Source: Bacillota bacterium
GTDB taxonomy: Bacteria > Bacillota > Limnochordia > Darwinibacteriales > DTU012
Direction: 5' to 3'
Assembly: GCA_012520795.1 (NCBI GenBank)
Contig: JAAYNP010000048.1
Location: forward strand, 1 to 44,772
DNA length: 44,772 bases
Position 1 is the first letter of the stretch; each line of letters opens with the position of its first letter. Below, piece after piece: positions 2,310 through 17,165 of the stretch. The notes beneath the pieces were generated by a model that was not told the DNA's origin, ran no database searches, and saw nothing but the letters and a program-made list of their open reading frames with translations. The position numbers and the translations under genes are program-made.

Positions 2310-3779
2310 CTAGCCATTCGACATTGCCGCTAACTGCTGGTGCAACCAGTCCGACTGGGCATACATCTGCTGCAGTGCCCTCTCCATGGCTACAAACTGC
2401 ATCCAGTACCGGTTTTCCAGCTGAGTTAGCCGCTCTTCCATAGCTTCAATCTGTCTCTCATAAGAACGAATCTTCTCTGACAGCTTGCTCTTGTCGTACA
2501 GCGTTGTGGACTTGCCGGCTGTTTTGTCCAGCCGGTCCAATCCAGTTGTCATAATACTGTCCAGCCTCCTGGCTATCCCTCGGGTCTGCTCTGTATCACC
2601 ATTGTTGGTAAACAAAGCCATTACCTGGTCAGGATTGCTTTCGACTGCATTGCGAAGCTTAGTTTCATCAAGATGCAGTTTTCCGTATTCAAACCAAGCA
2701 CCTGTAGTTATCCCAATCTTGCGCAGGGAATTCATACCATCAACACCATTTACTACGGATCCCATCGCCTGGCGCAGGTCTGACACCAGATTCGTCAGCA
2801 TTCTGTCTGAACGCAAAAGCCCACTCTTGGCCTTTTCCTCCCACAGCTCAATTTCCTGCTCGTCCATGTCCTTCTTCTGGGCTTCCGTCAGGGGCGGATA
2901 ATCCCGATAATACGGTTCGGTAAGCTTGCCCTGAATTTCGGCAATCAGCTCATTGTATTTCTCAACCATGGTCTTGATGCTGTCCACAATCTGATCCGTG
3001 TCTTGAACGACTTCCAGTCTCACTGTTTTATCGGACTCAGACTGCAGGCTGATTGCCAGGCCGGAAAAGGTGAAGCTATTGCTCTCCCGGTATGTTGCCA
3101 GCCCATTTATTTCAAATTCGGCATTTCCTCCCATTACATCCTCAACCCACGTTCCTCCGCCGAGCAAAACATCGTTAACAAAACTCTGGGTTTCTGGATC
3201 GTCTGCTCTGAAATCAACACGGGCGTTTGCCCCGGTTGCATTGCTTCTGAAAGCCAAGCTGTCCGTCGCTTCATCATAGAACACGGTAATACCCAGTTCT
3301 TTGTTCTGGTTGATTTTCTGGACAATACTATCTATGTCCTCACCGGGCTCGATATCTACCGCTACATATTCTTCGGCCTCCGCATGGGCGCGTAAATAGA
3401 CCGTTCCTCCAGAGAAGTCAGCCAGTCTCTCACTGACACCACCGGCACTGATCTTGGTTGCGGCTGTGGCCAGCTTAGAGACTTTGATCTCATAGGAACC
3501 ATAGGGAGCGTTGCCCACAACCTGTGCCTTGACGGCCGACTCATCGGAAGACGAAACCTGCCGCACCAGATAGGTGGACTGCAGCTGCATGTTGAATACA
3601 AGATCCCGAAAACTGGTGATTTTGGTCATCAATGCCCTATATTGATCCCGCTGCCATTCAGTCCGTACCTTCTGCTGGTAAATCCGGTCCAACGGCAGTC
3701 GTTCGACTTCCATCAATTGATTGACGATTTGTTCGGTATCAAATCCGGACGCTAAACCCCCAATACGCATAGCAACCAT
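2310..3779 (-). CDS. fliD: Flagellar hook-associated protein 2 (filament cap) FliD
   Basis: The 489-residue product starts with the classic FliD N-terminal block (RIGGLASGFDTEQIVNQLME; bundled D0/D1 region up to about residue 110) and carries the FliD C-terminal region (about 245-480) with VEKYNELIAEIQ, SGLLRSD and a closing coiled-coil stretch of about 60 residues. FliD forms the pentameric or similar cap that folds flagellin at the filament tip. AGGAGAGG lies only 0-3 nt before the first ATG (3779) but about 9-12 nt before the second ATG (3770), so the protein may start at the latter, MRIGG. A sigma-D promoter lies upstream. No other flagellar gene is adjacent. Confidence 0.93.
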   Translation of the reverse strand: MVAMRIGGLASGFDTEQIVNQLMEVERLPLDRIYQQKVRTEWQRDQYRALMTKITSFRDLVFNMQLQSTYLVRQVSSSDESAVKAQVVGNAPYGSYEIKVSKLATAATKISAGGVSERLADFSGGTVYLRAHAEAEEYVAVDIEPGEDIDSIVQKINQNKELGITVFYDEATDSLAFRSNATGANARVDFRADDPETQSFVNDVLLGGGTWVEDVMGGNAEFEINGLATYRESNSFTFSGLAISLQSESDKTVRLEVVQDTDQIVDSIKTMVEKYNELIAEIQGKLTEPYYRDYPPLTEAQKKDMDEQEIELWEEKAKSGLLRSDRMLTNLVSDLRQAMGSVVNGVDGMNSLRKIGITTGAWFEYGKLHLDETKLRNAVESNPDQVMALFTNNGDTEQTRGIARRLDSIMTTGLDRLDKTAGKSTTLYDKSKLSEKIRSYERQIEAMEERLTQLENRYWMQFVAMERALQQMYAQSDWLHQQLAAMSNG

Positions 3780-3806
3780 CCTCTCCTAATAATACCTACG
3801 CTAAAA

Positions 3807-3833
3807 TTATCGGCATTTCTTGATGATTCTTTA
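3807..3833 (-). promoter_or_regulatory. Sigma-D (FliA/SigD) flagellar promoter of fliD
   Basis: On the minus strand TAAA (3833-3830), 15 nt, then GCCGATAA (3814-3807) matches the late-flagellar sigma-D consensus TAAA-N15-GCCGATAW completely. It points at fliD, whose start is about 28-37 bp downstream of the -10. This places the fliD-fliT pair in the motility regulon and implies that the genome encodes a sigma-D. Confidence 0.88.
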
Positions 3834-3900
3834 GCCGATACAGGAACCGCTTGGCGAATCACGAATAGCATTACTAGATTCAAAAGAAGAAGGTGCGGCC

Positions 3901-5283
3901 TTGTTCAGAAAAGCAAAACATCCAAAAACACCTGAACCGATACTGGCAATCTGCCGTACATTATCCGGCCATGGGTTTCAGGCCTATGTAGTAGGCGGGG
4001 CGGTTAGGGATTCTTTGCTCGGCAAACCGCCAACCGATTGGGATGTTACAACTGACGCCACTCCTGAGCAGGTGCAGCAGATATTTCCGAAAACACTGGC
4101 AACCGGAGCCAAATATGGCACCATCACAGTGAGGGTTGACAGCCAATTTGTGGATGTTACCACGATGCGCAAAGATGCCCGTTATTCAGACGCCAGGCAC
4201 CCTGACAGCGTTGAATTCACAACTGACCTCACTACGGACCTGGGCAGGCGTGATTTCACCGTTAACGCCATCGCATATGACCCTTTAACCCAAACTTTTT
4301 GCGATCCCTATCACGGCCTTAAGGACCTGCGCCGGAGACTGTTGAGAACGGTGGGGGATCCCAGATCCAGGTTCAGTGAGGACGCCCTAAGAATGCTGCG
4401 CTTGATCCGCTTCAGCGCCACACTGGAATTCAAACCCGAGAGACGTACTCTCGATGGAATCCAGCCCCACTTGATCGCCAGAATAGCAGGGGAAAGACTC
4501 AAGGAAGAGTTCAACAGACTGCTCTTGGCCAATAATATCGTCCAACCGCTTCAGTTGTTGTATACAAGCGGGTTGTTGAAGTACATCATACCTGAGCTCG
4601 CTGCGGCTGCCGGAGTGGATCAAGGCAGTAATCATCCATGGGATGTTTTGGGGCATTCGATCATTAGCTGCCAGGCAGTAAAACCGGAGCTTCACTTAAG
4701 GCTGGCCGCACTTCTGCATGATGTCGCCAAACCACAGACTATAAGCGAGGACCAAAAAGGCATGCATTTCTACGGGCATGACCAATTAGGCGCTGCAATG
4801 GCCAAGGAGATACTCAGAAGGCTAACCTATAGCAAACGCATCCAGGCCAAAGTCCGCCTGTTGGTCAAGCACCACATGTTCCAAATCCACCCCTATTCCT
4901 CAGATAGAGCAATCCGCAGGTTGATCCACCGTGTCGGCAAAGAAAACATCTATGACTTGATTGAACTGCGTAAAGCAGATGTATTGGGCATGAACCATAA
5001 TCCCAAACATGTCTGGGCGTACTATCAAGCAATGATCGAAAGAGTAGACCAAATCATTGATGCTGACAATGCTTTTGCGCTGAAGGACTTGGCAGTTACA
5101 GGCACCGATCTGATTGAAGAACTGAATCTGCAGCCAGGGCCGCTCATCGGCAGGATCCTGAGCCATCTTTTGGATAAGGTCCTCGATGAACCGGAATTGA
5201 ACAATCGCCGGCAGCTCTTGGCAATTGCCAAAGAATTTGCAGGCACCTGGAGAGCCAGTGACGACGAGTCTCAGCATCCTTAA
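3901..5283 (+). CDS. cca: CCA tRNA nucleotidyltransferase with HD domain
   Basis: The 460-residue product belongs to the class II polymerase-beta-type nucleotidyltransferases that add or repair the 3' CCA of tRNA. Visible motifs are VGGAVRDSLLG (about 26-36), DWDVTTDA with the metal-binding Asp pair (about 42-49), RRDFTVNAIAYDP (about 112-124) and the RRLLRTVGDP / DALRMLRLIRF neck region. A C-terminal HD domain shows AALLHDVAKP (about 268-277) and KHHM. The start is TTG after GAAGAAGGTG; a weak start but the first in the conserved frame. A poly(A) polymerase of the same family is the main alternative; the HD domain favours Cca. Confidence 0.88.
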   Translation: MFRKAKHPKTPEPILAICRTLSGHGFQAYVVGGAVRDSLLGKPPTDWDVTTDATPEQVQQIFPKTLATGAKYGTITVRVDSQFVDVTTMRKDARYSDARHPDSVEFTTDLTTDLGRRDFTVNAIAYDPLTQTFCDPYHGLKDLRRRLLRTVGDPRSRFSEDALRMLRLIRFSATLEFKPERRTLDGIQPHLIARIAGERLKEEFNRLLLANNIVQPLQLLYTSGLLKYIIPELAAAAGVDQGSNHPWDVLGHSIISCQAVKPELHLRLAALLHDVAKPQTISEDQKGMHFYGHDQLGAAMAKEILRRLTYSKRIQAKVRLLVKHHMFQIHPYSSDRAIRRLIHRVGKENIYDLIELRKADVLGMNHNPKHVWAYYQAMIERVDQIIDADNAFALKDLAVTGTDLIEELNLQPGPLIGRILSHLLDKVLDEPELNNRRQLLAIAKEFAGTWRASDDESQHP

Positions 5284-5333
5284 GGAACGGTTCCGGTGCA
5301 GCATCCTGGACAGCTGTGGCATCGGATTTCCAC

Positions 5334-5408
5334 AAAAAAAAAGGAAGGCATCACCATAAAGAAAGGATGAGCTGATGTTACTACAATTGGTGATATCTTC
5401 CTTTTTGG
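5334..5408. terminator. Bidirectional terminator-like long hairpin
   Basis: The arm AAAAAAAAAGGAAGGCATCACCA-like at 5334-5356 pairs with TGGTGATATCTTCCTTTTTGG at 5388-5408, about 18 pairs with few mismatches and a 31-nt loop. T-runs occur at the 3' side on both strands. It separates the convergent cca (+) and nucleotidyltransferase (-) genes. Confidence 0.7.
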
Positions 5409-5416
5409 GGGCTTAA

Positions 5417-7162
5417 TCAAACAGGCACCGCAATCTCTTCGCTCACAAATATCATGTGGCCGTAAGCTGGAGGCAGGCTCCAATCCAACCTGTTTTCAGT
5501 CCACATACCCTCATCGCTGAAGTCACTTAATGTAAGATTGAACCCCAGTTTCATATTGTTTTGAGGTACAAAGCCAAAATGCCCGTTCAAGAGCTCAACA
5601 GGAATCCGGATATTCAAAGCATAACCTGCGGCCCCGGTTTCAACCTTAGCCCTGCGGTGAACAGGTACAGGCACACTGTCCGATGCATTCCTCAGGATAA
5701 TCCGGGGCGTGCCATCTTCAGCATGCGTGATTTTGCATGCAAACCAATGGTCCGTATCGTTAAAGAAATCAAGCAGGATATTATCGAGAAGGGGGTTGAA
5801 AGTGGGAATCTTGACACCGCCACTGTCAATGCTGATGTAACTGTAAAGATATTGATCATCCCATGCAAACGCCGCTTCCACCCTTCTCAGCTCATCAATC
5901 CGGTTGGCCCTTGAGACAAACGTTCTATAGAAGTTCCATGGCGGCACCCGGCTCTGATCAATCACCGCCACAGCCTTGGGATGCTTATTGATTTTAGCTG
6001 TCAGTTCAGGGTTGCTGCCGCGAAAACAATAGACCTCACCGCATATCCCTGCTTCTCGTAGTTTCCTGGCATGGTCCGCCATCCTTTCCATTTCCTTTTC
6101 CGGCCTAATCAAAAGTTCCAAAAAATTGCACTGGTAATCGATAAAGTCCCAAACCACCGGGTGGTTCGTCAAGCCACAGCCATCAGACTGCCTGTGGAGG
6201 TAATCCAGTACCCATTTGGGGATCAGCGCTTCGCACAGCATGCCGGCTCTGAGAAAAGCATAATACATCCATGAAGCAATCTTTAACTCATTGATCCGTT
6301 TTAACAGCGCCTCCCATCCCAGTTTGGGAATGAGCTCTTTTAACAGTATACAGCCATCCAGCAAAGGGAACAGGCGGGAACAATCGCGCACCCTGGCGAG
6401 TAACAGATACTCGTGACGAACAAAATGCAGGAAACTGTAAATAAGCAAATCCTCGTCTGTATGCTGCAGGTACAGAGTGTTCTCATCAAACACCGCAGTT
6501 TGTGCAGCTCTATAGAAGGACTTCGATGGTACGCCGCGAAATGCATAAAAATCCAACCGGTGAAGTTCGACAACATAGGTGAATCCGTACGCCAGGCGCT
6601 TGACATAGCGCGGCAGATGCGGGTTGGATTCTGGGTCGCAAAGTATTTTTTCAAATTCCGCAGGGTCACTGTTAATTGTGGTATAGCCGAGGTCCAGCAG
6701 AAGCCTATGTGCCTTGGCGATGTCTTCAGTATGCATCTGCAAGTCGAAGTCTTTAAAGTCACGCAGTAATTCTTCTGGATATCTCGACTGAGTCGCAAAC
6801 CCCTTAAGCACCAAGGGAATAATCCCGTGCCGGTTCAATGTTTTCAAGATTGCCCGAAACTCGCTTTTCATCAATTCGTCATGGATTTTGCTCCGGAGCA
6901 GAATTGCTTTGACTTTACTGTGAATCAATGGGTCCAGCTGCAGCTTCCGTGCCGCGAGGATTTGGCAGATGATCAGCAGCACCTCATGCCTTGCTGCCAC
7001 CGAGATGAATTCATTGACGTCAAACTCTTGCGGGAACAGTTCCTCACTGATCCCCTTATTGGCAAGATATGCATTTAAGATGTCCACCATACACTGCTCT
7101 TCGTTGGACAACTGGGAAGTCTTATGTTTTTCCGGGATCATCATGGCTTCATGAATTGCCAC
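5417..7162 (-). CDS. NTP_transf_5-type nucleotidyltransferase fused to a CBM9-like domain
   Basis: The 581-residue protein has an N-terminal nucleotidyltransferase of the uncharacterised NTP_transf_5 type: LVLKGFA (about 117-123) followed by LRDFKDFDLQM (about 133-143), with the Asp pair expected to bind metal. About residues 398-581 resemble a DOMON/CBM9-like beta-sandwich (AFAWDDQYLYSYISID; ending ENRLDWSLPPAYGHMIF). A longer frame opens at GTG 7222, but GTG 7162 has AAAGGGGG 7 nt upstream and lies downstream of the predicted promoter at 7197-7224, so I place the start there. Nucleotidyltransferases of this type accompany HPr-kinase-like proteins in some lasso-peptide clusters (paeninodin type). 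Substrate unknown; the fusion is unusual. Confidence 0.75.
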   Translation of the reverse strand: MAIHEAMMIPEKHKTSQLSNEEQCMVDILNAYLANKGISEELFPQEFDVNEFISVAARHEVLLIICQILAARKLQLDPLIHSKVKAILLRSKIHDELMKSEFRAILKTLNRHGIIPLVLKGFATQSRYPEELLRDFKDFDLQMHTEDIAKAHRLLLDLGYTTINSDPAEFEKILCDPESNPHLPRYVKRLAYGFTYVVELHRLDFYAFRGVPSKSFYRAAQTAVFDENTLYLQHTDEDLLIYSFLHFVRHEYLLLARVRDCSRLFPLLDGCILLKELIPKLGWEALLKRINELKIASWMYYAFLRAGMLCEALIPKWVLDYLHRQSDGCGLTNHPVVWDFIDYQCNFLELLIRPEKEMERMADHARKLREAGICGEVYCFRGSNPELTAKINKHPKAVAVIDQSRVPPWNFYRTFVSRANRIDELRRVEAAFAWDDQYLYSYISIDSGGVKIPTFNPLLDNILLDFFNDTDHWFACKITHAEDGTPRIILRNASDSVPVPVHRRAKVETGAAGYALNIRIPVELLNGHFGFVPQNNMKLGFNLTLSDFSDEGMWTENRLDWSLPPAYGHMIFVSEEIAVPV

Positions 7163-7196
7163 AGGAACACCCCCTTTGCTTGCCTCTACATTACTA

Positions 7197-7224
7197 GACG
7201 CTGGCCGCAGCGAAAAAATCACGG
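7197..7224 (-). promoter_or_regulatory. Putative ECF-type promoter, copy 1 (nucleotidyltransferase gene)
   Basis: Minus strand: CCGTGATTTTTTC (7224-7212), 11 nt, CGTC (7200-7197). The same two blocks with the same spacing occur upstream of the HPr-kinase-like operon (11545-11518). CGTC is a frequent -10 core of ECF sigma promoters. The predicted start, near 7190, leaves a leader of about 28 nt before the GTG at 7162. The motif overlaps the last codons of the preceding peptidase gene. Confidence 0.65.
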
Positions 7225-7569
7225 CCTGGGCAATTTTTCTATGCTAACTACCTTGCCCTTAACAAATTCAACAGCCCGGCAGGGGTCGGGCTTGTCTTTG
7301 TTATCACCCTTTGTCCTGACATAAACTCGGCCTTGCCTTGTACCAATATCAATCACTCGGTGCGCCACAAGAGAATCAAGGCTGAGCAGAATCACTACAA
7401 TATCACCGACTTTTATGTCAACGGGCGGTACAACTGTGATTGCATCACCTTCATTGATTGTCGGCTGCATACTGGTCCCGGTACCGTACATAACTACTGC
7501 CTGGCCTTGTTCCAAAGCGTCAAGGACCATTTCCATTGCAAGATGGTCTCTGTTTGTCGCCACAACCAT
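7219..7569 (-). CDS. SipW-type (S26B) signal peptidase-like serine peptidase without membrane anchor
   Basis: A 116-residue protein with GTGTSMQPTINEGD (Ser of the catalytic dyad in SM, about residues 30-43), then SLVAHRVIDIG, where His replaces the usual Lys, and VRTKGDNKDKPDP. This order of boxes is that of the SipW/ER-type signal peptidases with a Ser-His dyad. Unlike them, it has no clear transmembrane segment, so it may cut a peptide in the cytoplasm or be tethered by a partner. ATG 7569 directly abuts AGGAGG; the in-frame GTG at 7563 has better spacing. Divergent from the sigma gene, 84 bp apart. A role as leader peptidase of the neighbouring peptide pathway is inference. Confidence 0.72.
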   Translation of the reverse strand: MVVATNRDHLAMEMVLDALEQGQAVVMYGTGTSMQPTINEGDAITVVPPVDIKVGDIVVILLSLDSLVAHRVIDIGTRQGRVYVRTKGDNKDKPDPCRAVEFVKGKVVSIEKLPRP

Positions 7570-7653
7570 CCTCCTAACATCTTCCGTTTTTGTTCTTATG
7601 CAGGAATTCAGATCATTACAGCGAACTATTGCACCAAGATATGGAGGGTGCTT

Positions 7654-9042
7654 ATGCACGAGCTTTCAGACATTCAGTTAATTGAACAAATCCAAAAAAC
7701 CCAGGATGACCAGGCTTGCGAAGAATTGATCCGGAGATATTATGGGATCTTGCGCCAACTGGTTAAATATAAAGTACCTTCTCACGCAGATATCGATGAC
7801 ATTGTTCAAGAAATCCTCATCAAGGTGATTACAAAAATCGATCAATTGCGGGATCCAGCAAAGTTCAGACCTTGGATGAACCGGATCGTCCACAGCCAGA
7901 TCCAGGGTTACTACCGCACTGTTCATTCAGAGCGTACCCACCCCATCGTACAGGAAGGAAACGGGCTGTTAGACACCAATCTAATCACTGAGTCCTCAGA
8001 GGATGCAATCCTGCACAAACTGGAGATGAGCGATATCTACGACATCATCTTCGGGTTTCCCGGTGATAATGTCATGCCGTTTTTACTGCACCATCTTTAC
8101 GACCTAAGCTATGCTGAAATCGCTGCTGCAACAAACGCAAAACTGTCAACGGTCAGGGGGCGAATCGCCCGGACTAAATCTAGCCTGGACCAGAACATGT
8201 TTGACACTGATGTCCCGCAAGAAGTCCGGACAAGGCTGGCGGCAAAGCTCAGCCAGATTGCAACTGACGGCAGCTATGTGATCCATCATCTCCAAACCGA
8301 TTACTTCCAAAACAAACTACTGCTGGATGAGCTTGATCCAATGCGAATAGTCAAGACCAAACCTACGATATATTTCTCATATACCTTGGATAATCTCATG
8401 ATCATCTCTGGCCTTAACGAAGAACGGCTGGTATGCCTGCTCAAGGTTAAGTCCAGAAACGCAATCCCGATCCTGTTAAACAGGATATCAACAGCTAAGC
8501 AGTTCCACTGCATCTTCTTGAGTACCGAACACTTGGATTACGCCAGGAGATACCTCCGTTTTGTCTCCGAAATTGGCAGTTCCTCGTTTGTAGCTCTGCC
8601 ATCGCCAAATGTTAAACCTGTCCAGCCGCAGCATATAATCGAGAGTTCCCTGAATGATTTTTCCAGGATGAACTGCTTGAGGCAAGATCCGAAACTGATC
8701 GATATGCTCGATCAGGCCAATAGGGAATTTGGACCGCAACAGCAAAACTACCGGATCTATGCAGCTTACGCCCATTCCACCAGTGAACTCTGCGCATACG
8801 CCCTTTTTGTGCAGGTCGACAATCACCTATGGGAGCTGTGCCGCTATCGATCCATCAACCAAGCTGATGCCAGAGCAGCAAAAGATTGCATAGCAGCAGG
8901 CACCAGATCACTTGCGTGCCAAGGTTTTTATGTGGCAAATACCGGGGTGAAAGGAAACGACAAACTGTTCTTGGAAATCGCCTCGGCCCTCGGTTTTCAA
9001 GAGTTGTACCGTTTTATAAGTGGTACAGTTATTCTCAAGTGA
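7654..9042 (+). CDS. ECF-type RNA polymerase sigma factor with long C-terminal extension
   Basis: The 463-residue product has a sigma-70 region 2 (about 10-95: CEELIRRYYGILRQLVKY, DIDDIVQEILIKVI, KFRPWMNRIVHSQIQGYYR) and a region 4 helix-turn-helix (about 140-185: LYDLSYAEIAAATNAKLSTVRGRIARTKSSL). A normal ECF sigma ends near residue 190; here about 275 residues follow. The last 100 (YRIYAAYAHSTSELCAYALF to LEIASALGFQELYRF) weakly recall GNAT acetyltransferases, which I cannot confirm. GGAGGGTG stands 3 nt before ATG 7654; the frame is open much further upstream but lacks a better start. No anti-sigma gene is adjacent, so the extension may be the regulatory part. pqqD-like follows after 14 bp. 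Confidence 0.8.
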   Translation: MHELSDIQLIEQIQKTQDDQACEELIRRYYGILRQLVKYKVPSHADIDDIVQEILIKVITKIDQLRDPAKFRPWMNRIVHSQIQGYYRTVHSERTHPIVQEGNGLLDTNLITESSEDAILHKLEMSDIYDIIFGFPGDNVMPFLLHHLYDLSYAEIAAATNAKLSTVRGRIARTKSSLDQNMFDTDVPQEVRTRLAAKLSQIATDGSYVIHHLQTDYFQNKLLLDELDPMRIVKTKPTIYFSYTLDNLMIISGLNEERLVCLLKVKSRNAIPILLNRISTAKQFHCIFLSTEHLDYARRYLRFVSEIGSSSFVALPSPNVKPVQPQHIIESSLNDFSRMNCLRQDPKLIDMLDQANREFGPQQQNYRIYAAYAHSTSELCAYALFVQVDNHLWELCRYRSINQADARAAKDCIAAGTRSLACQGFYVANTGVKGNDKLFLEIASALGFQELYRFISGTVILK

Positions 9043-9056
9043 AAAGGACTGATACT

Positions 9057-9323
9057 ATGAAAAGGCTGACAAAAAGTGCTGATCTTGTTGTCCGTGAAGT
9101 GGATCAGGAGACAGTGATCCTGAACACCAAAACCGGCTTTATCCATGTCCTGAACCCCACCGGGACCGTAGTTTGGAAGCTGCTTGATGAAATTGATACT
9201 CCTGAAGCCATCATTGCTGCCATGACAGGGTTGTACGATCAAAGCGATGTTTCAGAAATCGAGGCTGATGTATCCGGGATTATCTCGGACATGATCTCAC
9301 AGGGAATCCTCAGTGAAAACTAG
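9057..9323 (+). CDS. PqqD-family RiPP recognition element protein
   Basis: An 88-residue stand-alone PqqD-type protein: TKSADLVVREVDQETVILNTKTGFIHVLNPTGTVVWKLLD is the usual winged-helix strand pattern, followed by a C-terminal helical part. Such proteins bind the leader of a precursor peptide and deliver it to a radical SAM or other maturase. ATG 9057 follows AAAAGGA; the gene lies 14 bp after the sigma gene, so both are probably one transcript. It ends 11 bp from the stop of the convergent candidate precursor gene. The presence of PqqD, radical SAM/SPASM and a short Cys peptide side by side is the main reason to call this block a RiPP cluster. Confidence 0.88.
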   Translation: MKRLTKSADLVVREVDQETVILNTKTGFIHVLNPTGTVVWKLLDEIDTPEAIIAAMTGLYDQSDVSEIEADVSGIISDMISQGILSEN

Positions 9324-9334
9324 ACCGTTTGCGC

Positions 9335-9520
9335 TTAGCTGAAGCAGACACAACCGGCGTGAGTCCGGAAACCATTGCTGCACATCCTAAACGGCCTGAT
9401 GGCATAACCTACGGCGAATACCTGCTCTGACTGCAATTTAGGCTGGACATAAGCACTTGTATCAATGTTGTGCTTTTCCCGAAACTGCTTAATAAACGCT
9501 GCACTGACCTTTGAATTCAT
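9335..9520 (-). CDS. Candidate RiPP precursor peptide (61 aa)
   Basis: ATG 9520 follows a perfect AAAGGAGG with 8 nt spacing; an upstream in-frame GTG (9529) lies inside that site and is not the start. The product has a Lys/Arg/Glu-rich helical front (FIKQFREKHNIDTS, residues 10-23), suited as a leader, and a C-terminal part FRMCSNGFRTHAGCVCFS (44-61) with Cys 47, 57 and 59 and a terminal Ser. It is the third gene of an operon after the HPr-kinase-like and radical SAM genes (20 bp gap to the latter). I recognise no homologue. Being short, it could also be a small accessory protein, but its ribosome binding site makes a chance frame unlikely. Confidence 0.65.
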   Translation of the reverse strand: MNSKVSAAFIKQFREKHNIDTSAYVQPKLQSEQVFAVGYAIRPFRMCSNGFRTHAGCVCFS

Positions 9521-9540
9521 GGAAAACACCTCCTTTAGAC

Positions 9541-10536
9541 TCAGGATTCCGCCAAAGCGTACTTGCGGTTGGCTGCGATCCGGCAGTTCTCTCTTGGTGA
9601 CAACAGATCACCTGTCTCCAAAACATTAAGCGCCAGGCATGGCTCGCAGTGCCGTTTCAGCTTGCATGCCCTGCAGACCTCAATTTCATCCACTGATATT
9701 GCCCGAACTTCTTCGAAAAGTGGCGAATCCTGCCAGATGGCTTCCAGGGGCTGTTCCCTGATATTGCCTGCAGCAGTTGGATATGCGACGCAAGGCCGGA
9801 TTCCTCCGTCAGGCCCCAGCACCAGGCCGGATTGGCCGATGCCGCATTTGGCAAAGCCTACATCAGCTTTCTGCCCGGACGCACGTTTAAACAGCTCCAC
9901 CATTTCAGCATCGGACAGGCGAAAATCCATCCGCTGATGCCCGTTAGGCAGCAGGCATGGCGAAAAAGAAAACCTCAACCGGTACCCGTTGTTTTCCGCG
10001 AAGGCAAGCATGGCTTCATAGTCTGCAAAATTCTGTTTGAGGACAACAGGCTTCAGGACAAAATTCAAACCGCTGGCTTTTAGCAACTGCAGCCCATTGA
10101 CAAATCTGCTGAAAGACCCCTTCACCCCAGTAATCCTTTCATATGAGGCAGGCGATGATCCATAAAGGCTGACTTCAATGGCTAAAGGTTCGATGCAAAG
10201 GAGCTTGTCAATCACCTCGCTGTCGATCAGTGCTGCATTCGTAAATATACTGACTGTAAAACCTATTGTGCGGAAAATCATCGCCACATCATACCAATCA
10301 GGCCTGTAAAAGAGCTCACCTCCAGTAAGGGTAATATCCATGATGCCCATCTGCCGCATTTGCCCGGCAGCATCAGCAATCTCCTCAAGAGTCAAATCCC
10401 GGGCCGCGCTGTGGTTGGGATTGTAGCAGTGAATGCATCGCAGATTGCATCCATAAGTAACCTCAAACACTGCTGTAAGAGGTTTGTTATGTAGTTTGTA
10501 CATCTCCATTACATATGCGAATGCAGACTTGTCCAT
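9541..10536 (-). CDS. Radical SAM/SPASM peptide-modifying enzyme (predicted)
   Basis: The 331-residue protein has the radical SAM cluster motif CNLRCIHC (about 30-37), the GGE segment LTGGELFYRPDW, and a C-terminal SPASM region with CGIGQSGLVLGPDG, RPC, then CRACKLKRHCEPC and a final ENC. That pattern indicates one catalytic and probably auxiliary 4Fe-4S clusters, as in maturases making thioether or carbon-carbon links in peptides. Start at ATG 10536, 8 nt after AGGAGG; a TTG one codon upstream is possible. It lies 12 bp after the HPr-kinase-like gene. The product chemistry (sactipeptide, ranthipeptide or other) cannot be read from the sequence. Confidence 0.88.
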   Translation of the reverse strand: MDKSAFAYVMEMYKLHNKPLTAVFEVTYGCNLRCIHCYNPNHSAARDLTLEEIADAAGQMRQMGIMDITLTGGELFYRPDWYDVAMIFRTIGFTVSIFTNAALIDSEVIDKLLCIEPLAIEVSLYGSSPASYERITGVKGSFSRFVNGLQLLKASGLNFVLKPVVLKQNFADYEAMLAFAENNGYRLRFSFSPCLLPNGHQRMDFRLSDAEMVELFKRASGQKADVGFAKCGIGQSGLVLGPDGGIRPCVAYPTAAGNIREQPLEAIWQDSPLFEEVRAISVDEIEVCRACKLKRHCEPCLALNVLETGDLLSPRENCRIAANRKYALAES

Positions 10537-10548
10537 CAAAGCCCCCTC

Positions 10549-11460
10549 CTATGATCTGCTGCCTACCGCCGTCAACTGTTTGATTTGCTCCCAGAAGCGG
10601 CAGTTCAGTTCAAAATGCAGTTCGTAGCAGGGGACCTGCTCAGAAATGCAGACAGCTATTTCCAAAGCATTTGCCGCAAGGCCGCCCAAGGTATTGATGC
10701 ACCACAGATTGGACATCAGCCTGGTGGCAGCTTCGGTAGGGCGCAGCTGTGCCAGGTATGTCGTGGTATCCTGAACCAGGAAGAAACAATAGCCCAAGGG
10801 AACGCATAGATTGGCTCCGCGGTGCTCCCTGCCGTACGGTGTACCCCAACCCACCAACCGGGGCAGATGGCCACCGTCGGCCTCAATCATAACCGCTTCA
10901 TCAGTCAGAGCTGTGGCCAGTCCTTCCGACTGGGAAAGCAGCTTGATTACCGTTGATTTGCCTGCTCCCGATTGCCCAATGAAGGCATACAGGCGATCCC
11001 CATAGCTAACTGCAGATGCGTGCATCAAAGTGCCGCCCTGCCTGATTGCCAAATACGGGGCAACGGCTCTCATGGCTGAGAACAAAAAACTTTCATCACC
11101 GTCTTCAACAACCATTTCAATAAAATAAGGCCCGTCGTCGGAAAACCTGATAATGAAAAACGGAGCCACCAACAAGGAATTGTCTGCCTTTGTATATCCA
11201 TGATAATCAGTGTCAAGAGGAAAATCCAAAAAACTGTCTGCCAGCACGAATCTGATTACTGCATCAGGCTTCACCCCACAAACGGGTGCGATGAAATTTG
11301 CATACTGGGCCCGCAGCATTTGAATCGACTCCAATGAAGGCGATTCGATTTTGATCAAAAATCTCCACAGGTTCAGCCAAATGCTGTGCGTTTGATCATG
11401 TTCATGCGCCGCAAAAGTGCAGTGCAAATACTTGATCACATCACCGACATCTATCTTCAT
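10549..11460 (-). CDS. HPr kinase-like P-loop protein of a RiPP-type cluster
   Basis: The 303-residue product has the HPr kinase-fold C-terminal region: LMHASAVSYGDRLYAFIGQSGAGKST (Walker A at about residues 165-173 region) and a following TDEAVMIEADGG. The first 150 residues show no known domain. Related kinases in lasso-peptide clusters phosphorylate the side chain of the precursor's last Ser; here the candidate precursor also ends in Ser, so a similar job is a reasonable but unproven guess. Start at ATG 11460, with GGGAGG 6 nt upstream; the frame extends to 11505 without a ribosome binding site. It is the first gene of an operon with a putative ECF promoter. Confidence 0.78.
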   Translation of the reverse strand: MKIDVGDVIKYLHCTFAAHEHDQTHSIWLNLWRFLIKIESPSLESIQMLRAQYANFIAPVCGVKPDAVIRFVLADSFLDFPLDTDYHGYTKADNSLLVAPFFIIRFSDDGPYFIEMVVEDGDESFLFSAMRAVAPYLAIRQGGTLMHASAVSYGDRLYAFIGQSGAGKSTVIKLLSQSEGLATALTDEAVMIEADGGHLPRLVGWGTPYGREHRGANLCVPLGYCFFLVQDTTTYLAQLRPTEAATRLMSNLWCINTLGGLAANALEIAVCISEQVPCYELHFELNCRFWEQIKQLTAVGSRS

Positions 11461-11517
11461 GCCAGTCCTCCCGTGGTTAATTACCAAGCGCTTTGCAAAA
11501 CCCATCTTATAATTAAT

Positions 11518-11545
11518 GACGCGTTAGGCGCTGAAAAAATCACGG
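11518..11545 (-). promoter_or_regulatory. Putative ECF-type promoter, copy 2 (HPr-kinase-like/radical SAM operon)
   Basis: Minus strand: CCGTGATTTTTTC (11545-11533), 11 nt, CGTC (11521-11518), identical in both blocks and in spacing to the copy at 7224-7197. The predicted start, near 11511, gives a leader of about 50 nt. It begins 7 bp after the terminator of nifJ, which would insulate it. Confidence 0.65.
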
Positions 11546-11551
11546 TCTTTG

Positions 11552-11594
11552 AAAAAAACCCCATCTGCTGTCAAACCGACAGCAGATGGGGTTT
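11552..11594 (-). terminator. Rho-independent terminator of nifJ
   Basis: A perfect 17-bp stem, AAACCCCATCTGCTGTC (11556-11572) with GACAGCAGATGGGGTTT (11578-11594), has a 5-nt loop and on the minus strand ends in a run of seven T (11558-11552). Confidence 0.93.
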
Positions 11595-11633
11595 CCAACC
11601 TATAGCGTTAGCTCCCGTCCAATACCATTGACC

Positions 11634-15149
<3,516 letters not shown>

Positions 15150-15341: not shown

Positions 15342-17165
15342 CTAAGCTTCATCGGCTGCTTTGCCTTTAAACTGCTTTTCATATAGCTCCCGGTACAAAC
15401 CAGGATGTTCAAGAAGCTGTTCATGAGTCCCCCGCTGCACAATCATGCCCTGATCCATGACCAGGATTTGATCCGCTGCGATGATTGTAGACAATCTATG
15501 GGCAATTACAATTGAAGTCCTACCAGCCAGCAAAGGTTTTATAGCATCCTGAATCAATCGTTCAGACAATGAATCCAGTGACGATGTTGCCTCGTCAAGG
15601 ATGATAATGCGTGGATTTTTCAATATTGCCCTGGCAATGCTCAGCCTCTGCTTCTCTCCGCCCGACAGTTTTGTTCCCCGCTCCCCTACGATTGTATCAT
15701 ATTCTTCAGGCAAAGTCATAATAAAATCATGGATGTTGGCAATTTTGCACGCTTGCTTTATTTCAGAATCAGAAGCATCCGGTTTGCTGTAAAACAAGTT
15801 TTCCCTGATGCTGGCATTGAAGATATAGGTATCTTGGGTCACAATCCCAATTTGCCTTCGCAGCGACTCGATCTTTACATCGCGGATATCAAAACCGTCG
15901 ATCATGATTGTACCGCTTGCCGGATCATATAACCGGGCCAACAGGTATGTGATTGTAGTCTTGCCGGAACCGCTCAAGCCCACCAGGGCTGTCATCTGTC
16001 CCTGCTCAATAGTGAAATTTATATCTTTGAGCGTTTCCTGTTCATCAGTATAGGAGAAATATACATTTTCAAACTCGATCCTGCCTTTAATTTGCGGCAT
16101 TTCCACAGCATCCGGAGCATTTGTGATTTCATGCTTTAGATCCATATATTCGAAAATTCGCTCAAACAAGGCCATGGAACGGGAGATCTCTATATGGACG
16201 CTAGTCAAATCCCCAATGGGCCCATAAAGGCGATGCAGGAAAGCCACAAATGTAACAATGGCGCCCACTGTCAATTCATCCTGGATATAAAGGTAACCGC
16301 CATAAAAGTAAATCAGGACCGGGCCTAGATGGGTAAAAATCTGAATTACCATCCGAAACCAGCGTCCAGCCACTGATTCCCGAATCTGGAGCCTTGAGAT
16401 TTCTCGGTTGATTTGGCTGAATTTCTTATACTCATCTCTTTCCCTGGTACTGATCTTAACCAGCATGGCACCGCTGACATTGAGTGTCTCCTGGATAATG
16501 CTGGACAGCTCCGCCAGTTTTGCCTGGGTTTGTGCTGCGATTCTCCAGCGCGTCCTTCCCACCCTTCTTGTCGGCGCTACAAACATCGGTACAATAAACA
16601 GAGCCAGAATTGACAGCTTCCAGTTCATTGAGATCAAAGTAACCGTAATGAATACTAAGGTGGAGAAGTTGCGGACAATCCTGATGACAGTCCCGGAAAA
16701 CACCATTTCGATGCCGTTCACATCGTTGTTGAGGCGGGACATGATTTCGCCAATTTTTGTATTGGAAAAAAAGCGCATGGACATATACTGCAGATGATTG
16801 TACATATTGTTTCTGATATCACAAATGATTTGTTTGGAAACCCACGTGTTAAGATAGCTTTCACCTACGCCCATCAAGCCAAGCACAAAAGTTGCGCCAA
16901 AGGACAGCAACGCAAAACGGGCCAATAGACCCAAGTCCCTTTCAGGCAGCGCAACATCGATAATATTCTTGGTCATCATCGTTGGCACGAGAGACAAAAG
17001 CTGTCCCACCGCTACAGCCAGCAGTGTAATCACGATCTGTTTCCAGTACGGTTTATAATACTTGCCGATTCTCAGCAGCAGTTCCTTAGTGACTTTTGCC
17101 CGGGGCAGATCTTCTCTGCTCAAACGCATGAACCGGCCCATGCCGGGGCCCATACCCATACCCAT
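15342..17165 (-). CDS. ABC exporter, fused membrane and ATPase domains
   Basis: The 607-residue half-transporter of the MsbA/LmrA/BmrA type has six membrane segments in about residues 35-330 and an ATPase domain with Walker A GLSGSGKTT (about 385-393), signature LSGGEKQRLSIARA (about 490-503) and Walker B IIILDEATSSLD. It works as a homodimer and could export drugs, lipids or peptides. The N-terminus is odd, a Met/Gly-rich MGMGMGPGMG run. It has no peptidase (C39) domain. It is a separate unit about 4 kb from the RiPP-like block, in which no exporter is seen, so a link is possible but unsupported. Start ATG 17165 after GAAGGGA. Confidence 0.9.
   Translation of the reverse strand: MGMGMGPGMGRFMRLSREDLPRAKVTKELLLRIGKYYKPYWKQIVITLLAVAVGQLLSLVPTMMTKNIIDVALPERDLGLLARFALLSFGATFVLGLMGVGESYLNTWVSKQIICDIRNNMYNHLQYMSMRFFSNTKIGEIMSRLNNDVNGIEMVFSGTVIRIVRNFSTLVFITVTLISMNWKLSILALFIVPMFVAPTRRVGRTRWRIAAQTQAKLAELSSIIQETLNVSGAMLVKISTRERDEYKKFSQINREISRLQIRESVAGRWFRMVIQIFTHLGPVLIYFYGGYLYIQDELTVGAIVTFVAFLHRLYGPIGDLTSVHIEISRSMALFERIFEYMDLKHEITNAPDAVEMPQIKGRIEFENVYFSYTDEQETLKDINFTIEQGQMTALVGLSGSGKTTITYLLARLYDPASGTIMIDGFDIRDVKIESLRRQIGIVTQDTYIFNASIRENLFYSKPDASDSEIKQACKIANIHDFIMTLPEEYDTIVGERGTKLSGGEKQRLSIARAILKNPRIIILDEATSSLDSLSERLIQDAIKPLLAGRTSIVIAHRLSTIIAADQILVMDQGMIVQRGTHEQLLEHPGLYRELYEKQFKGKAADEA

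Follow-up and report, generated by a model that had tools for sequence, protein, structure and literature searches.

HprK-like kinases of lasso peptide clusters, such as PadeK and PsmK, phosphorylate the C-terminal serine of the peptide, to which PsmN then adds hexoses (PMC8498205, PMC9266682). The YxxPxL motif of the leader is bound by the B1 proteins of lasso clusters, which are of the PqqD type (PMC10368454, PMC12710340). For PadeB1, the affinity for its leader is in the nanomolar range (PMC5067487), and the RiPP recognition element (RRE) protein BsfB1 boosts the HprK-like kinase BsfK (PMC10368454). Here, we analysed a 44,772-nucleotide stretch of a Bacillota bacterium of the class Limnochordia (contig JAAYNP010000048.1 of assembly GCA_012520795.1, positions 1–44,772), referred to as the window. 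Seven genes at positions 5417–11505 encode a nucleotidyltransferase, an S26-like protease, an extracytoplasmic function (ECF) sigma factor, a PqqD-type protein, a 61-residue peptide, a radical SAM/SPASM enzyme, and an HprK-like kinase. The seven genes form one functional unit. The locus is probably a cassette for a ribosomally synthesised and post-translationally modified peptide (RiPP) with its own regulator, in which lasso-type leader recognition is joined to radical SAM chemistry on cysteines, phosphorylation of a terminal serine, and perhaps addition of a sugar. We infer the chemistry and all enzymatic steps of the cassette.

Comparison with described systems

The locus resembles lasso clusters of the paeninodin and pseudomycoidin type in its HprK-like kinase, nucleotidyltransferase, PqqD-type B1 protein, YxxPxL leader, and terminal serine. 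In place of their asparagine-synthetase cyclase and B2 transglutaminase-type protease, however, it has a radical SAM enzyme along with a protease of the S26 type. No asparagine-synthetase-like lasso cyclase was found among the open reading frames of 5417–11505, and the cassette contains no B2 transglutaminase-like leader protease, only a protease of the S26/S24 type. An earlier sequence-only reading of this DNA had proposed a RiPP-like pathway in which a radical SAM enzyme replaces the lasso cyclase; that proposal is upheld, with PqqD and the YxxPxL leader as the lasso-type front end.

The SynChlorMet cassette of NCBIfam (ScmC, ScmD, ScmE, and ScmF) likewise combines an HprK-like kinase (ScmC), a PqqD-like protein (ScmD), and radical SAM/SPASM enzymes, and ScmC is the best NCBIfam match of the window kinase. 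The window, however, has one radical SAM enzyme and not two, and adds the sigma factor, the nucleotidyltransferase, the S26-like protease, and a recognised precursor. Its Scm matches lie far below the NCBIfam cut-offs (30 against 125 bits for ScmC, 28 against 100 for ScmD, and 91 against 400 for both ScmE and ScmF), as do those of its relatives. A SPASM maturase adjoining a short precursor with at least two core cysteines is also characteristic of sactipeptides and ranthipeptides. The locus differs from them in having PqqD as a separate protein, a leader of the lasso type, a kinase, and a nucleotidyltransferase, and its thioether bonds are putative. The HPr-rel-A system (NCBIfam HprK_rel_A) also combines a kinase related to HprK with a member of the PqqD family, but the window kinase reaches 16 bits against the HprK_rel_A cut-off of 200.

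The sequence-only reading knew of no described pathway with this gene set. As worded, this is not supported, because the combination of HprK, PqqD, and radical SAM/SPASM proteins is widespread and NCBIfam names the related SynChlorMet system. In the open-access literature searched, no paper joins HprK, radical SAM, and PqqD or describes the full seven-gene set, SynChlorMet is not mentioned, and HPr kinase, radical SAM, and RiPP come together only in a general survey of anaerobes. We place the locus as a branch with its own sigma factor within a broad and as yet uncharacterised type of HprK/PqqD/radical SAM cassette with a lasso-type leader. What still sets it apart is the extended sigma factor and a promoter dedicated to the cassette.

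Precursor peptide and its proposed recognition

The precursor gene (9335–9520, reverse strand) encodes 61 residues ending in CFS. Orthologues occupy the equivalent position in three further species of the genus, with 61–66% identity and 29 of the 61 positions invariant. The dN/dS ratio across the four species is 0–0.29, with synonymous sites near saturation. A profile of the four peptides picks up a relative in genome G011, which belongs to a different family of the order (E 4.7e-5), and there is a further relative in another class (genome G084). Judged by its conservation beside the radical SAM gene, which the sequence-only reading had made decisive, the 61-residue frame is a real gene. The CFS terminus is invariant in the genus, and the terminal serine is also present in G011.

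The segment YVQPKL (9434–9451, reverse strand) is a lasso-type YxxPxL leader motif, of which Y24 and P27 are invariant in eight peptides. The PqqD-type RRE protein (9057–9323, forward strand) is encoded by a gene that is present in a single copy in the whole genome. It matches PF05402 with 53.2 bits (cut-off 23.4) and lasso_PqqD with 41 bits, below the cut-off of that model. By analogy with lasso B1 proteins, PqqD would bind the YVxPx[LMV] motif of the precursor and present the peptide to the enzymes.

Modifying enzymes and protease

The radical SAM/SPASM maturase (9541–10536, reverse strand) matches PF04055 with 84 bits and PF13186 with 43 bits. Its CxxxCxxC motif and seven SPASM cysteines are invariant in nine relatives and, since the peptide cores are rich in cysteine, the radical step most likely acts on cysteines. 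The target of the enzyme would be the C-terminal core C..N..RTH..C[FC]S, in which thioether links through cysteines are the most likely modification. A PADLOC search for anti-phage defence gave only generic radical SAM (viperin) matches, on this enzyme, and a role in defence was rejected.

The maturase also has good scores with the models of MftC (113 bits) and PqqE (96 bits), without passing the cut-off of either. Together with the invariant C-terminus of the peptide and the lack of an exporter in the cassette, these scores would suit a small, intracellular redox cofactor derived from the peptide and resembling PQQ or mycofactocin. To make it, PqqD and the SPASM enzyme would shorten the peptide and close it into a ring, and the kinase and nucleotidyltransferase would add a nucleotide-like handle. 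However, there is no linked dehydrogenase or MftB/PqqB-like partner, and ABC exporters occur in distant cassettes. Moreover, 19 of 20 cores are rich in cysteine and their sequences differ between lineages, which is unlike cofactor precursors. We consider a cofactor unlikely and return to the RiPP cassette as the preferred interpretation.

The HprK-like kinase of the PadeK/ScmC type (10549–11460, reverse strand) has weak matches to ScmC (30 bits) and HprK_rel_B (23 bits), and retains the Walker A motif GxSGxGK(S/T), the acidic D(E/D) motif, and PCYxxHF. Its resemblance to PadeK and the excess of terminal serines in the wider family suggest that it would phosphorylate the terminal serine.

The NTP_transf_5 nucleotidyltransferase (5417–7159, reverse strand) matches PF14907 with 96 bits (cut-off 31.2), and its KG...R...DxD motif is invariant in five relatives. 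The enzyme has a putative CBM9-like β-sandwich tail (5443–5884, reverse strand). In Foldseek, the low-confidence AlphaFold model of the tail (pLDDT 54) matches the CBM9 folds 4jpq, 7nwn, and 1i82 with E of about 1e-3, whereas the Pfam family CBM9_1 (PF06452) reaches 14.6 bits, under its cut-off of 23.4. The tail assigned in the sequence-only reading thus has moderate support from structure comparison but is sub-threshold in Pfam. Similarly to PsmN, the nucleotidyltransferase might attach a hexose or a nucleotide to the phosphate, perhaps with the help of the tail; this is the weakest of the enzymatic steps. The nucleotidylation suggested earlier is one option, but the published precedent, PsmN, attaches hexoses to phosphoserine (PMC9266682).

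The soluble protease of the S24/S26 SipW/Sec11 type (7219–7569, reverse strand) passes TIGR02228 with 56.4 bits (cut-off 51.85), and its Ser-His-Asp residues S33, H70, and D89 are invariant in eight relatives. The earlier assignment as a signal-peptidase-like protein is retained; the SipW model gives 40.3 bits, below its NCBIfam cut-off of 190. The protein is the sole candidate leader protease in the cassette and would remove the leader.

Organisation of the cassette

The sigma factor and PqqD genes are on the forward strand, and the remaining five genes are on the reverse strand. The likely units are protease-nucleotidyltransferase (reverse), sigma factor-PqqD (forward), and kinase-maturase-peptide (reverse). 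All seven genes listed in the sequence-only reading are present, but its frames extended upstream of the likely starts, that of the nucleotidyltransferase running to 7222. Based on conservation in relatives, the starts are set at 7569 for the protease, 7159 for the nucleotidyltransferase, and 11460 for the kinase (all on the reverse strand). The cassette is flanked by cca and PFOR, at 2310–5283 and 11634–15146 of the window.

Sigma factor and proposed dedicated promoter

The ECF sigma factor (7654–9042, forward strand) has 462 residues, passes Sigma70_r2 and Sigma70_r4_2, and matches sigmaE in Foldseek (E 4.6e-6). Its C-terminal extension of 258 residues (8266–9042, forward strand) has a tentative GNAT-like topology, judged from alignments and the order of strands and helices in a low-confidence model. 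Searches of Pfam and PDB sequences for a GNAT identity returned nothing firm (FR47 at 13 bits in one sequence), and the top Foldseek matches cover the sigma part alone; the GNAT assignment therefore stays tentative. Among the genomes searched, the extension occurs only in those that carry the cassette. In a partial sample of 398 genomes from across the phylum, it was found only in the genus and G084, with G011 and G004 not among the matches listed.

Two units of the cassette are preceded by an ECF-type promoter motif. An aligned block with fixed spacing, TGATTTTTT-N12-CGT, lies upstream of the kinase gene. In the window, the site TGATTTTT-N13-CGTCA (11517–11542, reverse strand) precedes the kinase-maturase-peptide unit; it has equivalents in G002 and G004, and its position in G003 is covered by a run of N in the assembly. 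The next-best site in a scan of the cassette precedes the nucleotidyltransferase gene at the equivalent place in all four species, and reads TGATTTTT-N13-CGTCT in the window (7196–7221, reverse strand). It is kept also in G002, whose nucleotidyltransferase differs. In the whole 2.37-Mb genome, the pattern TGATTTTT-N13-CGTMW occurs just twice, each time at the cassette, before the nucleotidyltransferase and the kinase units. There are two matches in G004 (both at the cassette), one in G003 (at the cassette), four in G002 (two at the cassette), and none in the cassette-free sister species G001. Over eight genomes, seven of ten exact matches are at the two sites of the cassette, and a reversed-pattern control gives 0–2 matches per genome. 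Because CGTMA was widened to CGTMW once the nucleotidyltransferase sites had been seen, the genome counts are the fair test.

Read as TGATT-N16-CGTC, the motif has, at the level of sequence, ECF geometry with a spacing of about 16 nucleotides and CGT in the −10 element. We infer that the local sigma factor reads this motif, in line with the earlier claim that the cassette has its own sigma factor. The sigma factor would switch on the nucleotidyltransferase unit and the kinase-maturase-peptide unit from the dedicated promoter. The upstream regions of G011 and G084 contain no clear copy of the motif of the genus (g1), and a scan for sigma70-type promoters gave no excess over shuffled sequences.

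The restriction of the extension to cassette-bearing genomes, the apparent confinement of the sigma targets to the cassette, and the overlap of the sigma and maturase frames in G084 would also be expected of an autoregulatory circuit, in which the sigma extension would sense the modified peptide as a signal and the enzymes would serve to produce it. However, most of the wider cassettes lack a sigma factor, so that the peptide chemistry is independent of it, and binding of the peptide to the extension is hypothetical. Such a circuit is improbable as the purpose of the locus. Within the RiPP cassette, the extension may, speculatively, sense the product or the substrate.

Recurrence in relatives

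In the genus (g1), G002, G003, and G004 contain all seven genes in the same order, and the nucleotidyltransferase of G002 is a different member of the same family that likewise has a tail. In G011, the nucleotidyltransferase with its tail, PqqD, the extended sigma factor, the peptide, and the S26-like protease are on one contig, and a maturase-kinase pair is on a second; no other HprK relative was found in that genome. G084 has all seven genes in one reordered block of 6.3 kb, in which the frames of the sigma factor and the maturase overlap. The seven genes recur together in the genus, in G011 on two contigs, and in G084, answering the concern of the sequence-only reading that their homologues might never be found together.

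The sister species G001 lacks the kinase, the peptide, and the sigma extension in a conserved backbone. The absence of the cassette there is what would be expected if the genes had been assembled by chance or formed a decaying mobile island. However, the seven families occur together in three lineages in differing order, the peptide is under purifying selection, no composition shift is seen across the cassette, and the units share a dedicated promoter. An island or chance assembly is thus highly improbable, and chance proximity as such is ruled out by the recurrence in three lineages and the linkage in G084 and G011. Carriage on a plasmid was also rejected, as relatives of the kinase were absent from all plasmids of the collection.

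In G005 and G006, cca and PFOR are near neighbours with no cassette between them. The distance in G006 is about 1.4 kb, and the gap holds MsrB-like and sugar-isomerase-like frames. The cca alignment of G001 (locus L054) contains one internal TAG.

Wider family of cassettes

A scan with the kinase alignment identified 14 loci, including some from Chloroflexi, Omnitrophota, KSB1, Nitrospirota, Nitrospinae, and Acidobacteriota. They encode an HprK-like kinase and a radical SAM/SPASM enzyme, usually PqqD and an S26 protease, and in several cases a nucleotidyltransferase. Most lack a sigma factor. Short frames with Y-x-x-P-x-[LIVM] lie in the gaps of 10 of 11 distant loci (L012 and L017–L026), against 3.1 expected from dinucleotide shuffles, and the peptide of L012 scores above the lasso-leader cut-off of NCBIfam. 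A second search found such cassettes in further families of the phylum, where the peptides contain YTKP, YEKP, or YVKP.

Among 20 wider-family peptides, which were chosen by the leader motif YxxPx[LIVMF] and not by core and whose lineages are not fully independent, 19 have at least two core cysteines. Eight end in serine (binomial P 4.5e-5 at the 7.3% serine frequency of the cores themselves; 2.5e-4 without one near-duplicate).

Several loci differ in composition. In L012 (G059), a cassette with two ScmE/ScmF-like radical SAM enzymes and a lasso-type leader peptide, the S26 protease is joined to a PqqD-like domain in one protein (5766–6500). L124 (G167, 2775–14651) has three RiPP-type modules in tandem: a lasso-type cluster (nucleotidyltransferase, asnB, HprK, and PqqD) is followed by two HprK/PqqD/S26 peptide units, one of them with a radical SAM enzyme. 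Cysteine-free YEKP and YEEP peptides in L129 (9153–9287) and L130 (10353–10472) are located beside HprK and S26 genes, with PqqD in L129, and have no adjacent radical SAM gene; they are possibly a kinase-only branch. When plasmids were searched with the G084 nucleotidyltransferase, one member of the family proved to adjoin an annotated lasso cluster of Halopiger, but others lay in unrelated contexts.

Export and assessment of the RiPP interpretation

Several observations weigh against a RiPP cassette as proposed here. No exporter was found within the cassette, although some distant relatives carry an ABC exporter. The PqqD gene is on the strand opposite to those of the peptide, maturase, and kinase, and the motif was looked for before the sigma gene itself and not found. 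The G084 peptide ends in RG, and the terminal serine is thus not universal; the target of BsfK is an internal serine. The structure models of the nucleotidyltransferase tail and the sigma factor are both of low confidence. The earlier description of the cassette as self-contained holds for the sigma factor, enzymes, and precursor, but not for export. The product would be exported by a transporter encoded elsewhere or kept inside the cell. An ABC exporter at 15342–17165, beside PFOR and about 90% identical between species, is a possible peptide exporter but is probably unrelated to the cassette.

A more far-reaching possibility, which we hold only tentatively and regard as rather doubtful, is that the locus defines a new RiPP class. 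In such a class, a lasso-type leader and PqqD would direct cross-linking of cysteines by the radical SAM enzyme, the C-terminal serine would carry a phosphate or phosphoglycosyl group, and the ECF sigma factor would sense or modify the peptide through its fused GNAT-like domain.

Significance

The cassette joins two kinds of RiPP biosynthesis that are usually kept apart: the lasso-type leader with kinase and nucleotidyltransferase tailoring, and radical SAM cross-linking. Precursor candidates are now named for a cassette type that is spread over many phyla. With seven genes, a known precursor, a promoter motif, and a sister species without the cassette, the locus is a small, complete system that would allow tests of leader sharing, terminal phosphorylation, and the control of RiPP expression by a sigma factor. 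The sigma factor carries an uncharacterised extension, and its regulon appears to be a single pathway.

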